64,000 nucleotides of DNA, taken from contig NZ_VFOO01000001.1 of NCBI RefSeq assembly GCF_006716115.1, positions 2,170,001-2,234,000 of the forward strand, written 5' to 3'. This DNA is from Subtercola boreus. GTDB lineage: Bacteria; Actinomycetota; Actinomycetes; Actinomycetales; Microbacteriaceae. Under the pieces are notes generated by a model, which had not been told where the DNA came from, searched no databases, and saw only the letters and a program-made list of their open reading frames with translations. Position 1 is the first letter of the stretch. Every line of letters starts with the position of its first letter. Shown here piece after piece: positions 7,504 to 28,656 of this stretch. The position numbers and the translations under genes were made by a program.

Positions 7504-7523
7504 CCCCCGGTACGGGGGCTTTT
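7504..7523 (+). terminator. Small intrinsic terminator-like hairpin
   Basis: CCCCCG (7504-7509) pairs with CGGGGG (7513-7518) around a GTA loop and is followed by CTTTT (7519-7523). It sits in non-coding DNA, not behind a gene. It may end a small RNA started near 7356-7368, or attenuate a leader of the downstream operon. Confidence 0.5.
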
Positions 7524-23659: not shown

Positions 23660-24409
23660 CTAGGAGGGCCCCGCGCCCTCGAAGACCGCGATGGGTGTGC
23701 CCGCCTCGTAGTCGACCAGCACGCGGAGGTCGCCGCGCTGGTCGAGGGGGATGTTGAAGATGTAGGTGCCAGCCGCACCGGCTCCCGCCTCGACGACCGG
23801 TGCGATCGGGGCGCCGCCGGTGCTGAGGGAATCCGCCGGGGTCCTCGCTGCGCCGTAGGTGACGTTCACCACAGTGGTCTCGAGCGAGATCGGGGCGGAC
23901 GTGGTGTTGGTCGCCGTGAGGGTGAACTGGATCGAGGGGCCAGCGACTTCGCCCACCGCGCTCGCCGTGCCCTCGACCGACGTCATGCTCGAGATCTGGA
24001 ACACGAGTCCGGGGATGGCTGTGACTGGCGCGTCGATCGCCACGGGGGCCGCCTCGACAGGCGCGGTCGGCACTGCAGCCGGATCCCCCGCCGAAGGGTC
24101 GGTCGACGCGGGGTCGCCCGTCGCGGGGTCGCCCGTCGCGGAGCCGGACGGGCTCATCGGGTCGCCACCGGGTGAGGATGCCGAGCCGGTGACCGTGGGC
24201 AGAATCGTTTGGGCGACAGAACCCGGCGATCCACGGCCGCCCGCCGAGACGGAAACCACCACCACGACGGCGACGACGACCACGACGGCGCTGGCGACGC
24301 CGATGAGCCACGGCCGCCGGGATCGCGCTCCGCCGCCGGTCGCCCGGTCGCTCCCGGGCCGGTCGCTCCCTCTACGGTCGCTGCCTGAACCGGCTTCATC
24401 CTCGATCAT
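23660..24409 (-). CDS. Membrane-anchored Ig-fold protein (DUF4352-like)
   Basis: The 249-aa protein has a short cytosolic N-terminus with GSDRP repeats and one membrane segment (PWLIGVASAVVVVVAVVVVV, about 32-51). A Pro/Thr/Ser/Asp-rich linker with repeated GDPA units follows. The extracytoplasmic Ig-like beta domain contains SIQFTLTATNTTSAPI and YIFNIPLDQRGDLRVLVDY. The fold resembles DUF4352/telomere-repeat-binding-like lipoprotein domains. The function is unknown; an envelope-anchored partner of the exported polymer is possible. The ATG at 24409 overlaps the end of the upstream polymerase gene by 14 nt. Confidence 0.75.
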   Translation of the reverse strand: MIEDEAGSGSDRRGSDRPGSDRATGGGARSRRPWLIGVASAVVVVVAVVVVVSVSAGGRGSPGSVAQTILPTVTGSASSPGGDPMSPSGSATGDPATGDPASTDPSAGDPAAVPTAPVEAAPVAIDAPVTAIPGLVFQISSMTSVEGTASAVGEVAGPSIQFTLTATNTTSAPISLETTVVNVTYGAARTPADSLSTGGAPIAPVVEAGAGAAGTYIFNIPLDQRGDLRVLVDYEAGTPIAVFEGAGPS

Positions 24410-25814
24410 GCCGAGCCTCTTTCCACTCTTCGGGTGTCTCGGCCTGCGAGTCACGACGCGATCGTACAGGGCCAGCCGAAGGGTGGTCTGAACCGGGGAC
24501 AGGGCCGGGTACGAGCCCGGGGATCCGCCTCGAGGTGCGGACACGTGCCAGCGCCGGCGTGGCCGCGAGGCCGATCGCCAGAACGAGAGTGTGCGACAGG
24601 CTGAGCAGCGGACTGAACGCGAAACCCCAGAGACTCGTCGCGACGACGAAGATCATCAATCCGCTCGCGGTGCGATTCGCGATACGCGTTGCCAGACCCC
24701 ACAGCAGAACCACGATCACCGCGGCAGCGAAGACCAACCCCGCGAACCCGAAGTGCGCCCACAGGTCCCCGAACCCGGAATGGAGTTCGATCCGGTCGCC
24801 GAACATGTAGATCTCGACATAGCCGTTGTTCGGGGCGTAGTTGATCGAGGCCATACCCGCCTTGGCGATGTTCACGTCGACCTGGCTGGGGACCGCCCCT
24901 GCGCCGTAACCTCCGGGCTGGTGCTGCATCAGCGCCCACGTCGCTGCGAGCTCCGGTCGCCCCCCGAGCAGCAGCGATCCGGACGTGTCGATCTGCTCGA
25001 CAGAACGGGCCTGGGCCGACTGCCCGAGGTAGCCGTCGAGCACCAGGGTCTGGCCGACGTTGAAGATGACCGCCGCGAGCACAGCGAGTCCCGCTCCGAC
25101 TCTGAGCGCCGCCAACCGGCGGCCGGATCGCGCCGGAATGGCCTGGAAGCACACCAGCACCAGCGCGAGCAGGAGCAGGCCGAAGGCCGAGCGCGAATCG
25201 CTGAACAGGGTGATCGCCGTGATGATCGCCAGGACCAGGATCTCCACCCATCGTCTGCCGATCTTGAAGGCGACGGCAAGGGTGATGACGGCGACCGGAA
25301 GCGCGTACCCGAACTTCCACGGGTTGAGGTGGAACATCGGCGTGTTCGGCGAGACCCCCAGGGCCAGCCCCACCCCGAACCAGAACGCCATGTTCGCCTC
25401 GCCGAGAACCCGCCGTGCCCACAGCACCACGCCCACGGTCAGAACAAGGCCGATCTGCGAGATCGTCGTGACCGCGAGCAGCAGCGAGCTGGTTTCGCCG
25501 GAGGAGGCGTTCGCCAGGCTGAGCCAGATCCCCATCGCCGCAGCCAGGAGCCCCAGCCCGATGATCCACCAGCCGCCGCGGAAGGAGGTGACGGCGGGAA
25601 TCCAGACCGGTGCGAGCACCAGCGCCACGATGAATCCGATCTGCGTTCCGGCGGGCAGCAGGATCTCGAGGGCGATGAGGATGAGCGACAGGGCGGCGAT
25701 GCCACGCACGATCCGGCGGGGATCACGCTCACCGACCGGGGGGAGCCCGCGCACGATGGATGCCCGGCGCGACGTCTCGCGGAGGATCGGCGGGGACCCG
25801 CTCGCTTGTGCCAT
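24396..25814 (-). CDS. Wzy-type polysaccharide polymerase/O-antigen ligase-like protein
   Basis: The 472-aa protein has about 10 to 12 membrane segments and one large extracytoplasmic loop (about residues 275-355). That loop contains GGRPELAATW and NNGYVEIYMFGDRIELHSGF, followed by GDLWAHFGFAGL. This layout is that of Wzy/WaaL proteins, which join lipid-linked repeat units outside the membrane. The ATG at 25814 is supported by a leaderless-type -10 box. The upstream in-frame extension to 25880 would contain the promoter. Confidence 0.83.
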   Translation of the reverse strand: MAQASGSPPILRETSRRASIVRGLPPVGERDPRRIVRGIAALSLILIALEILLPAGTQIGFIVALVLAPVWIPAVTSFRGGWWIIGLGLLAAAMGIWLSLANASSGETSSLLLAVTTISQIGLVLTVGVVLWARRVLGEANMAFWFGVGLALGVSPNTPMFHLNPWKFGYALPVAVITLAVAFKIGRRWVEILVLAIITAITLFSDSRSAFGLLLLALVLVCFQAIPARSGRRLAALRVGAGLAVLAAVIFNVGQTLVLDGYLGQSAQARSVEQIDTSGSLLLGGRPELAATWALMQHQPGGYGAGAVPSQVDVNIAKAGMASINYAPNNGYVEIYMFGDRIELHSGFGDLWAHFGFAGLVFAAAVIVVLLWGLATRIANRTASGLMIFVVATSLWGFAFSPLLSLSHTLVLAIGLAATPALARVRTSRRIPGLVPGPVPGSDHPSAGPVRSRRDSQAETPEEWKEARHDRG

Positions 25815-25820
25815 GCCGTA

Positions 25821-25826
25821 AGAATA
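25821..25826 (-). promoter_or_regulatory. -10 box TATTCT, probable leaderless promoter of the Wzy gene
   Basis: On the minus strand TATTCT is followed by exactly 6 nt (TACGGC) and the ATG at 25814. This promoter would drive the leftward group wzy-like, Ig-fold protein, surface protein and glycosyltransferase. Confidence 0.45.
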
Positions 25827-25879
25827 GGGGCTCGATTCCTCGAAATCACCTGCGGTCGCTGTCGGCCTGGTCATCCGCA

Positions 25880-25893
25880 CCCCCTTAAGGGGG
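25880..25893. promoter_or_regulatory. Perfect palindrome CCCCCTTAAGGGGG in the promoter of the beta-helix gene
   Basis: The 14-bp perfect palindrome lies just upstream of the -10 box TATACT (25896-25901), in the -35/-10 spacer. It is well placed to be an operator. The C-tract/G-tract form recalls CsoR-family operators, but no such regulator is seen in the window. Confidence 0.5.
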
Positions 25894-25895
25894 GT

Positions 25896-25901
25896 TATAC
25901 T
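25896..25901 (+). promoter_or_regulatory. -10 box TATACT for the beta-helix gene leader
   Basis: TATACT is followed by 6 nt (GGGCGC) and a GTG at 25908, the leaderless spacing seen elsewhere in the window. Transcription would begin at about 25908, leaving a leader of about 256 nt before the main gene at 26164. Confidence 0.5.
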
Positions 25902-25907
25902 GGGCGC

Positions 25908-25931
25908 GTGAAGCCCCGGTTCCTGACCTGA
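25908..25931 (+). CDS. Candidate leaderless 7-codon leader peptide
   Basis: The GTG at the predicted transcription start opens a tiny frame, M-K-P-R-F-L-T, ending in a TGA. The stop codon lies inside the first palindromic repeat (25924-25936). The short length, the position at the 5' end and the overlap with a hairpin are those of a translated regulatory leader. Codon use cannot be tested over 7 codons, so this may be chance. Confidence 0.35.
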   Translation: MKPRFLT

Positions 25932-26084
25932 GGTCAGTTGACTTACGCTGGGGTGCCACGGCCTGATCTGCGATCAGTTGATTCCCGCACGTGCTCCAGC
26001 GCCCGGTCGACGACCAGGCGGTTCGACCTGGCCCCCCTCAGCGCCTGATCCACGATCAGTTGACGTCCGCTGGCACACCTCGAT
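25922..26084 (+). repeat. Four tandem ~40-bp repeats, each with a 13-bp palindrome
   Basis: The units start at 25922, 25962, about 26002 and 26044. Each holds a palindrome: TGACCTGAGGTCA (25924), TGATCTGCGATCA (25964), CGGTCGACGACCA (26004) and TGATCCACGATCA (26046), i.e. TGRYC-N3-GRYCA. Units 1, 2 and 4 continue with GTTGA; unit 3 is degenerate. The palindromes are spaced 40, 40 and 42 bp apart. They lie in the untranslated leader between the promoter and the GTG at 26164. They could act as RNA hairpins or as a helically phased DNA-binding array. Confidence 0.7.
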
Positions 26085-26163
26085 GCCGCACCGTGCTCGC
26101 CCGGCATCTCCGATCCCCTCGTTCGACACCCGCTGCTCCAACCCCACCCTTCGAGGAGTACCC

Positions 26164-28656
26164 GTGCCCAGACCTTCCCATCGGACCACATCTCTCAGCC
26201 TCGTCAGGCTCATCAGGCTCATGAGGCTCATGAGGCTCAGGAGAACCGCGGGCATCCTCGCTGCGGCGGCCATTCTGGCGGGAACCGTCGTCGCGCTCCC
26301 CAGCACAGCGAACGCCGCAACGACGGTGGTCGTCTCCGACATCTTCAACCGGACCACCAGCTCGGGCTGGGGCAGCGCCTCGCCGGGAGGGGCGTACTCG
26401 ACGTCGGGTTCCGCCCGTTTCACGGTCGGCGCAAGTGTGGCGAGGATCTCCGGGCTGGCCCCCGCGACGGCGGCTTCCGCCTCCCTCGGCTCGGTCTCGG
26501 CACAGGATGTCAACATGGCGGCGACGATCATGGTGCCGGCATCACCGATCACCGTCTACCCGGCCTTCGAACTGCGCCGGCAGACGAACGGCGACCTCTA
26601 TCGTGCGAGCCTGCAGGTGGGATCCAGCGGTAACCTCGCGATCCAGCTCTCGCGCACCTCGGGGGGCGTCGACACCGCGCTCTCGCGTGTTCCGCTCCCC
26701 TTCACCGCTCTCTGGGCGACATCCATCGCACTGGAATTCCAGGTCACCGGCAGCGGCTCGAGCGTGCAGGTCGCAGCGCGGGCCTGGAAGGCCGGAACCA
26801 CCAGACCGGGCTGGCAGAGCGTCATCACCGACACCTCGGGCAGCCGTATCCGGTCGGCCGGATCGGTGGGCATCTTCGAGTACGCGGGCCGTTCCAACGC
26901 CGCCGCAACGAGCACCGGCTTCGACAAGCTGACGGTCACGAACGGGGTGGGTGCCGCGACGATCGTTCCGCCGGTCACCGCTCCGCCCGTCACCACGCCT
27001 CCCGTCTCCAGCACGCCGACTCCACCCGACACGACAGGCAAGGGCTCTGCGCAGGTCGGAACCACCGCGTACGCGGTCCCGGCCACCGCGATCGTCGTCG
27101 CCGTGGCATCCGGCAGCGACTCGAACACCGGCAGTCTCGCCCGACCTCTGAAGACCGTCGCCGCGGCCATCGCGAAAGCCGCCAGCGGCCAGACCATCGT
27201 GCTGAGGGCCGGCACTTACCACGAGTCAGTCACCGTTCCCGCCCAGAAGAAGCTGACGATCCAGTCGTATCCGAACGAGGCCGTGTGGTTCGACGGCAGC
27301 AGCCAGGTCACCGCGTGGAGCAGATCGGGAACGGTCTGGAAGGCGAGCTGGTCGTTCTTCCCCTCGAACTCGGTTCTCGGGGTCGCAGACAACCCGCGTT
27401 TCGTCGATGCGTCCAAGCCAATGGCCGGACGACCCGACCAGGTCTTCGTCGATGGCGCCGCCCTCACCCAGGTGGGTTCGGCAGCAGCGGTCACCGCCGG
27501 CACGTTCTTCCCGGATCCGGGCTCGAAGACGGTCACGATCGGCACGGATCCCACGACGAAGTCCGTGCGGGTGAGCAACCTCGGCACCGCCCTTGTCGTG
27601 AACGGGCCCGGCACGGTGCTGCAGGGCTTCGGAGTTCGCCGTTACGCCACGACCTACGCCCAGCAGGGCGCCGTCGGGCTCTACAACGACAACCTGACCG
27701 TGCGCAACCTGGTCATCGAAGACAACGCGATGATCGGGATCCGTGCCTGGAACAACAACCTGCTGGTCGACCATGTCACCTTCCAGCGCAACGGGATGCT
27801 GGGCATCGTCGCTACGACGTCGTACAACTCGACCATCCGGAACTCCGTCTTCACCGTCAACAACAACCAGCGGTTCAAGACCGAGCCGGAGGCGGGCGGC
27901 GCGAAGATCGCCCGGTCGCGCGGATTCACCTTCACGAACAACGACACCAGCAACAACTTCGGCACCGGCCTGTGGTTCGACGAATCGTCGTACGACCTCA
28001 CCGTGACCAACAACACCTCGATCGGGAACACGCAGGCCGGAATCGAGATCGAACTCTCCGCGAAGGCGATCGTCGCAGGCAATGATGTGTCGAACAACCC
28101 CTACGGCCTCTACATCGTCGACTCCAGCGACCTGAAGGTCTTCAACAACAGGTTCGACAAAGAGGGCCAGATGGGCATCCGCATCGTGCAGGATGAACGG
28201 CGCCAGTCCGACCCCTCGTGGCATGCGCAGGACCCCCGGCAGCCGATCCCTGATCCGACCGTGACCTGGATCGTCAAGAACATCCAGATCTCGAACAACG
28301 TGTTCGGCACCTGGCAGGGGTTCCAGGTCCTCGCCTGGGATTCGAAGACCGGGAGAACGGCCGACCAGATGAACATCACCCTCTCCGGCAACCTGTTCAA
28401 CCACCGGACGACGTTGAGCCAGGCGACGCTGGTCGCCTGGGGCACCGGAACCAACACCTTCGCACGCCTCGACAGCGTGGCCGCCCTCATGGCGAAGAAC
28501 CCGGCCTGGGTGAACCAGGAGACCACGTCGGCCCTCCCTGTCTCGGCGATGGCGAGCGCGATCGTGGCCGCTGCCGCCAGCGCGGTGCCGCTGCCCGCCG
28601 ATGTGGCGGCCGCTGCCGGACAGGCGAAGGGTCTGAAGAAGGTCGGTCTGTTCTAG
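26164..28656 (+). CDS. Secreted right-handed parallel beta-helix protein
   Basis: The 830-aa protein starts at a GTG 5 nt after GAGGAG. The signal peptide (cut near ANA-AT, residue 51) has an unusually long basic n-region, RLIRLMRLMRLRR, made by a 9-bp tandem repeat. The FNRT...GG domain (about 57-265), also at the C-terminus of the protein encoded at 18807, comes next. A Pro/Thr linker leads to a pectate-lyase/NosD-like beta-helix (about 320-760, many NN-ending coils such as NNTSIGNTQAG). Beta-helix proteins of this type bind, cleave or epimerise polysaccharides. Placement in this locus suggests it acts on the exported polymer. Catalytic residues cannot be assigned. Confidence 0.85.
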   Translation: MPRPSHRTTSLSLVRLIRLMRLMRLRRTAGILAAAAILAGTVVALPSTANAATTVVVSDIFNRTTSSGWGSASPGGAYSTSGSARFTVGASVARISGLAPATAASASLGSVSAQDVNMAATIMVPASPITVYPAFELRRQTNGDLYRASLQVGSSGNLAIQLSRTSGGVDTALSRVPLPFTALWATSIALEFQVTGSGSSVQVAARAWKAGTTRPGWQSVITDTSGSRIRSAGSVGIFEYAGRSNAAATSTGFDKLTVTNGVGAATIVPPVTAPPVTTPPVSSTPTPPDTTGKGSAQVGTTAYAVPATAIVVAVASGSDSNTGSLARPLKTVAAAIAKAASGQTIVLRAGTYHESVTVPAQKKLTIQSYPNEAVWFDGSSQVTAWSRSGTVWKASWSFFPSNSVLGVADNPRFVDASKPMAGRPDQVFVDGAALTQVGSAAAVTAGTFFPDPGSKTVTIGTDPTTKSVRVSNLGTALVVNGPGTVLQGFGVRRYATTYAQQGAVGLYNDNLTVRNLVIEDNAMIGIRAWNNNLLVDHVTFQRNGMLGIVATTSYNSTIRNSVFTVNNNQRFKTEPEAGGAKIARSRGFTFTNNDTSNNFGTGLWFDESSYDLTVTNNTSIGNTQAGIEIELSAKAIVAGNDVSNNPYGLYIVDSSDLKVFNNRFDKEGQMGIRIVQDERRQSDPSWHAQDPRQPIPDPTVTWIVKNIQISNNVFGTWQGFQVLAWDSKTGRTADQMNITLSGNLFNHRTTLSQATLVAWGTGTNTFARLDSVAALMAKNPAWVNQETTSALPVSAMASAIVAAAASAVPLPADVAAAAGQAKGLKKVGLF
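26200..26244 (+). repeat. 9-bp in-frame tandem repeat in the signal-peptide coding region
   Basis: CTCGTCAGG, CTCATCAGG, CTCATGAGG, CTCATGAGG and CTCAGGAGA follow one another. They encode LVR-LIR-LMR-LMR-LRR-type triplets in the n-region of the signal peptide. Unit changes would stay in frame and change the charge and length of this region. Confidence 0.75.

Follow-up and report, generated by a model that had tools for sequence, protein, structure and literature searches.

The locus and its leader

The window analysed here, a 64,000-nucleotide stretch of the Subtercola boreus genome, contains two divergent genes, one encoding an O-antigen-ligase-like protein (minus strand) and one a beta-helix protein (plus strand), whose intergenic region (25815-26163) holds a set of palindromic repeats. 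The locus raises the question of whether these repeats act as DNA, act as RNA, or have no function at all. The features are listed in Table 1. Judging by the glycosyltransferase, Wzz-like, acyltransferase and cytidylyltransferase domains in neighbouring proteins, among the window proteins scanned, the region resembles a locus for surface polysaccharide. Two observations support 26164 as the start of the beta-helix gene: the Shine-Dalgarno-like GAGGAG, and matching starts in the orthologues of four related genomes (G001, G004, G008 and G010). In G011, the corresponding codon is TTG. On the same evidence, a longer N-terminus running through the repeats, in the frame open from 25942, was rejected. 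The signal-peptide region of the gene contains a 9-bp tandem repeat (26195-26239; TCAGGCTCA, 5 copies), which encodes an RLMRLMRL repetition and could vary in length.

Table 1. Coordinates of features at the beta-helix locus (positions within the window)
Feature	Position	Strand	Basis or remark
O-antigen-ligase-like gene, divergent	24396-25814	-	Pfam Wzy_C, 26.6 bits, below the 31.7 cut-off
Promoter box CCCCCTTAAGGGGGG and -10-like TATACT, beta-helix gene	25880-25901	+	sequence; similar box in orthologues
Possible leaderless ORF GTG...TGA, 7 codons (MKPRFLT)	25908-25931	+	sequence; six bases after TATACT
Predicted 5'-end RNA hairpin, if transcription starts at 25908	25908-25960	+	-25.2 kcal/mol, z -3.41
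Repeat unit 1	25922-25961	+	perfect dyad 25923-25937, GTTGA tail
Repeat unit 2	25962-26001	+	perfect dyad 25963-25977, GTTGA tail
Repeat unit 3	26002-26043	+	degenerate: one broken pair, 42 bp, without GTTGA tail
Repeat unit 4	26044-26083	+	perfect dyad 26045-26059, GTTGA tail
Shine-Dalgarno-like GAGGAG	26153-26158	+	sequence
Exported right-handed beta-helix protein, 830 aa	26164-28656	+	PF13229, E 9.1e-36

The array sits between the promoter and the Shine-Dalgarno site, in a leader of approximately 256 bases as against some tens in relatives. The core of the unit is a 15-bp palindrome, CTGRYC-N3-GRYCAG, followed in three copies by a GTTGA tail. An initial annotation of this DNA had described four repeats with the palindrome TGRYC-N3-GRYCA, which is correct for three perfect 6-3-6 dyads, CTGACC-TGA-GGTCAG (25923), CTGATC-TGC-GATCAG (25963) and CTGATC-CAC-GATCAG (26045), but not for the copy at 26003 (CCGGTC-GAC-GACCAG), which is degenerate, with one broken pair and a left side that departs from TGRYC. 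The spacing of 40, 40 and 42 bp and the retention of the tail in three repeats, both also given there, agree with the sequence. Tandem Repeats Finder (TRF) at score 30 did not report the array.

Upstream of the array, a box of the form CCCCC-AAA-N2-3-GGTGT precedes the beta-helix gene in all six same-genus orthologues, and the box of the window itself (AAGGGGGGTTA, CCCCCTTAAGGGGGGTTATACT) aligns with it as a looser match; in the orthologue from another genus (G015), CCCCCAAAG is present and the remainder is missing. The likely -10 element, judged by eye, varies: TAACCT/TACCCT in G004 and G001, and TAGGGT, TACGGT or TAGAGT elsewhere. A scan of 25700-26300 gave no promoter of the TTGACA type. 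The putative promoter box is the conserved part of the region, the array and the peptide not being common to the relatives. At up to two mismatches, the box has six sites in its own genome versus two for a reversed control; two of the other five were inspected by eye, one preceding a permease-like frame and one lying inside a frame. A draw of 249 family genomes, not including G001, G004 or G010, yielded the strict form once (in G008, at the orthologous gene), and no regulon for the box could be shown in its own genome or in the 249. The GC-rich, palindromic CCCCCTTAAGGGGGG, directly before TATACT, may itself be a regulator site.

Distribution of the array

The tailed unit CTGRYCN3GRYCAGTTGA has three exact sites in the 4.2-Mb genome, all within the array. 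None of the 66 genome sites listed carried a single mismatch, and at two mismatches 63 sites were counted versus 28 for the reversed control pattern. The untailed CTGRYCN3GRYCAG occurs at 36 genome sites, among which the GATC/GATC form is confined to 25963 and 26045; with no exact tailed site elsewhere in the genome and this form found only here, twice, no regulon became apparent. Clusters of arbitrary palindromes are less rare: the window contains 52 6-3-6 palindromes against 32 expected, and in 31 of 300 simulated 64-kb windows at least three fell inside 140 bp. What exceeds chance is therefore the sequence common to the copies, and not the mere clustering of palindromes.

Within its own genome the array DNA matches only itself, and a mobile or dispersed repeat was rejected; a CRISPR-like array was dismissed by eye, the units being degenerate. 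A search with the array DNA against 99 related genomes gave pieces of 24-60 bases in seven others (E 6e-4 to 1e-3), and among 15 plasmid and 6 phage records the best E value was 0.02.

The beta-helix protein was matched in 27 of the 99 genomes, its own included, at E <= 0.001, and in 11 genomes besides its own below 1e-100. Upstream DNA was read in the seven nearest orthologues, six from the same genus (G001, G004, G007, G008, G010 and G011) and one from another (G015), and the array was absent from all seven, a count that omits four more distant matches (G084, G043, G044 and G038). The start codon lies 33 bases after TAACCT in G004, with G001 similar, and 51-55 bases after TANNNT in G008, G010 and G011. 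The initial annotation had named the absence of the repeats from relatives possessing the gene as grounds for giving up its proposal, and such absence is what we observed in those seven orthologues.

A covariance model of the unit was built from the four copies, which it scores at 35.5-51.4 bits by construction. The next-best site in the same genome (25.8 bits) is a reading-frame stretch without a full dyad, and in the other 11 genomes of the genus no tandem set was present among the matches listed (best site 27.3 bits). Across the family, matches at E <= 5e-4 appeared in 12 of 398 genomes, with more than one match only in the genome of origin; nine of the 11 foreign matches were inspected, and all nine lay inside open frames of at least 150 aa, which are weak evidence in GC-rich DNA. 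This family search used stricter filters, scored 15 first-look candidates per genome and may have missed weak relatives. The two-unit pattern was present in six of the 398 genomes, the five foreign ones as single matches, and among 59 loci only six had two RY dyads within 90 bp, all of them this locus itself. Pattern and covariance searches yielded no second array in the 398 family genomes.

A scan of all bacteria for two RY dyads 22-30 bp apart returned at least 119 stretches in genome contigs and 3 in viral contigs. In nine of the 122 loci listed, three RY dyads fell inside 140 bp; a pair of GTTGA-tailed units that close together was seen in none. The pattern is too loose for GC-rich genomes, and the scan therefore says nothing about the absence of such arrays elsewhere. 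Literature searches for palindromic promoters of exopolysaccharide genes in Microbacteriaceae found no paper, and those for comparable repeat or operator layouts nothing relevant by title. The tandem array is real but private to one lineage.

Comparison of the copies

Between units 1, 2 and 4, identities amount to 32/36 in the arms and 13/15 in the tail, and to 3/9 in the loop and 29/57 in the spacer; unit 3, degenerate and two bases longer, was dropped from these counts. With unit 3 included, arms and loop together score 63/90 and the spacer 56/114. Complementarity is kept in all but one of the 24 arm pairs, and changes on both sides are seen in two of the six pairs, a result equalled in 27 of 500 shuffles. 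The compensatory arm changes anticipated in the initial annotation are therefore seen between copies, but not between species.

In neutral simulations at the spacer-level divergence (0.316 per copy), 23/24 pairs were kept in none of 20,000 runs; the proportion was 0.05% at 0.2, 4.5% at 0.1 and 21% at 0.06 per copy, so that neutrality is possible if the true divergence was lower (0.1 or 0.06). All these comparisons involve three or four copies and motif limits chosen after viewing, and constitute moderate evidence. As conservation is higher in the arms than in the spacers and two pairs are compensated, the dyad itself was probably under selection. A repeated dyad with conserved arms, as expected of an operator array, is present in three perfect copies and one degenerate copy.

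RNA folding and the leaderless reading frame

The predicted RNA fold of the complete leader is unremarkable (z -0.45; 65 of 200 shuffles do as well), and single units are slightly better than their own shuffles (z -1.23 to -1.42). The predicted hairpin at the presumed transcript start (53 nt) was equalled by none of 200 shuffles; when 53-nt pieces were drawn at random from the window, however, 8 of 700 (about 1%) reached z -3.4, and a piece shifted by two bases gave only z -1.63. No Rfam family matched the leader at E <= 1. Secondary structure conserved across species was not observed, the seven nearest orthologues lacking the array and Rfam being negative. No G-U pairs were seen in the palindrome arms. 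The lack of such pairs and the merely ordinary overall stability of the RNA lean towards action at the DNA rather than the RNA level. A search of 25700-26300 revealed no terminator-like site. Far upstream in the window, a GC palindrome (7504-7518; CCCCCGGTACGGGGG) followed by CTTTTGT is terminator-like by eye.

The initial annotation also drew attention to a box, TATACT (25896-25901), followed after six bases by GTG AAG CCC CGG TTC CTG ACC TGA, and placed the TGA within the first repeat. Both details are confirmed by the sequence, the stop codon (25929-25931) being exactly the loop of palindrome 1. A single copy of the full pattern TATACT-N6-GTG-N18-TGA is present in the window, where 0.03 would be expected, although the pattern was written down after the site had been seen. 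A similar geometry, TANNNT-N6/7-ATG, is found at the divergent O-antigen-ligase-like gene (24396-25826, minus strand) in 8/8 genomes, with six bases in six of them and seven in two; in the window itself, TATTCT at 25821-25826 lies six bases ahead of the ATG. This arrangement, recognised from the sequence, is a conserved candidate leaderless start, and on its account a leaderless GTG at 25908 is credible in this lineage, provided that transcription begins at that point. A 5'-terminal ATG or GTG is enough to initiate translation in mycobacteria, as described in PMC4633059.

None of the relatives examined has TANNNT-N6-start codon at the position of the peptide. In four of them a GTG stands six bases after TACCCC (G008 and G010) or TGCCCC (G007 and G011); these cases were not counted, as neither hexamer fits TANNNT and a sequence that does lies close behind, but they could tell against dismissing the peptide. 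MKPRFLT contains neither a codon run nor a residue that recurs, and its GUG is base-paired in the hairpin predicted at the 5' end. We regard this short leaderless ORF as probably incidental.

Possible functions of the array

Tandem operator arrays of dimeric bacterial repressors consist of several short DNA dyads, regularly spaced, by a promoter. The array described here resembles them in having several regularly spaced short dyads beside a promoter, and differs in that it lies downstream of the presumed start, is not conserved in relatives, and offers candidate sites with no assigned protein and none elsewhere in the genome. Our preferred reading, held tentatively, is a lineage-specific tandem array of operator-like DNA sites in the leader. 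Approximately four 40-bp units lie between the conserved promoter and the Shine-Dalgarno site and lengthen the leader to about 256 bases, the 15-bp dyad and its GTTGA tail being the part of each unit that is conserved. Most likely, the dyads would be operator-like sites, set at intervals, for a dimeric DNA-binding protein; once bound, this putative protein would hinder or modulate RNA polymerase a short way beyond the promoter. Of this scheme, transcription from TATACT, the binding of the protein and the repression are steps that we infer. The array of protein-binding sites suggested in the initial annotation has thus become the leading explanation by virtue of its anatomy, although the notion of phasing suffers from 40-bp steps that are not exact 10.5-bp helical turns. 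Arms kept above spacers, compensated pairs, ordinary RNA stability and the lack of G-U pairs in the arms speak for operators; the decay of unit 3 and the lack of conservation between species speak against them. The 28 window proteins scanned included none recognisable as a binding protein or dedicated regulator.

The absence of the array from the seven nearest orthologues, one copy already degenerate and the abundance of 6-3-6 palindromes and of their clusters in windows of this size would suit a neutral or near-neutral tandem duplication of a leader segment that included a chance palindrome and is now decaying without function. This is a serious possibility, though not the one we prefer, as arms and tail are much better kept than the spacers and two pairs are compensated. 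Stabilisation of the mRNA or slowing of translation by leader hairpins, chiefly that at 25908-25960, seems unlikely: the predicted 5' hairpin and the slight excess stability of each unit alone favour it, but the leader as a whole is unremarkable, random pieces occasionally equal the hairpin, a two-base shift weakens it, and neither Rfam nor the comparison of species lends it support. An RNA switch governed by translation of the leaderless peptide, the other proposal of the initial annotation, is very improbable. The start geometry shared with the divergent gene speaks for it, as does the precedent of M. smegmatis, where small leaderless ORFs that contain cysteine codons act as attenuators of the genes behind them (Canestrari et al. 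2020, as reported in the review PMC9031893). Like those attenuators as the review describes them, the ORF here is short, would be leaderless, and lies at the presumed transcript start and upstream of a larger gene; unlike them, it lacks a run of cysteine codons or of any other codon, is not conserved, and is accompanied by no attenuator structure that we could find. Its paired GUG, the ordinary fold, the missing Rfam match and the lack of a terminator-like site weigh further against the switch. A young array, private to one species, in which DNA operators combine with RNA action through the 5' hairpin of the first dyad so as to control the surface beta-helix protein of a polysaccharide locus, is improbable.

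Should the dyads bind a protein, as the operator reading proposes, they would represent a young cis-regulatory array separating a gene from its conserved promoter, and a usable case of operator arrays arising by tandem duplication. The array reveals no new class of RNA leader. The candidate leaderless start geometry, kept in 8/8 genomes at the divergent gene, is a cleaner signal on gene starts in this lineage.
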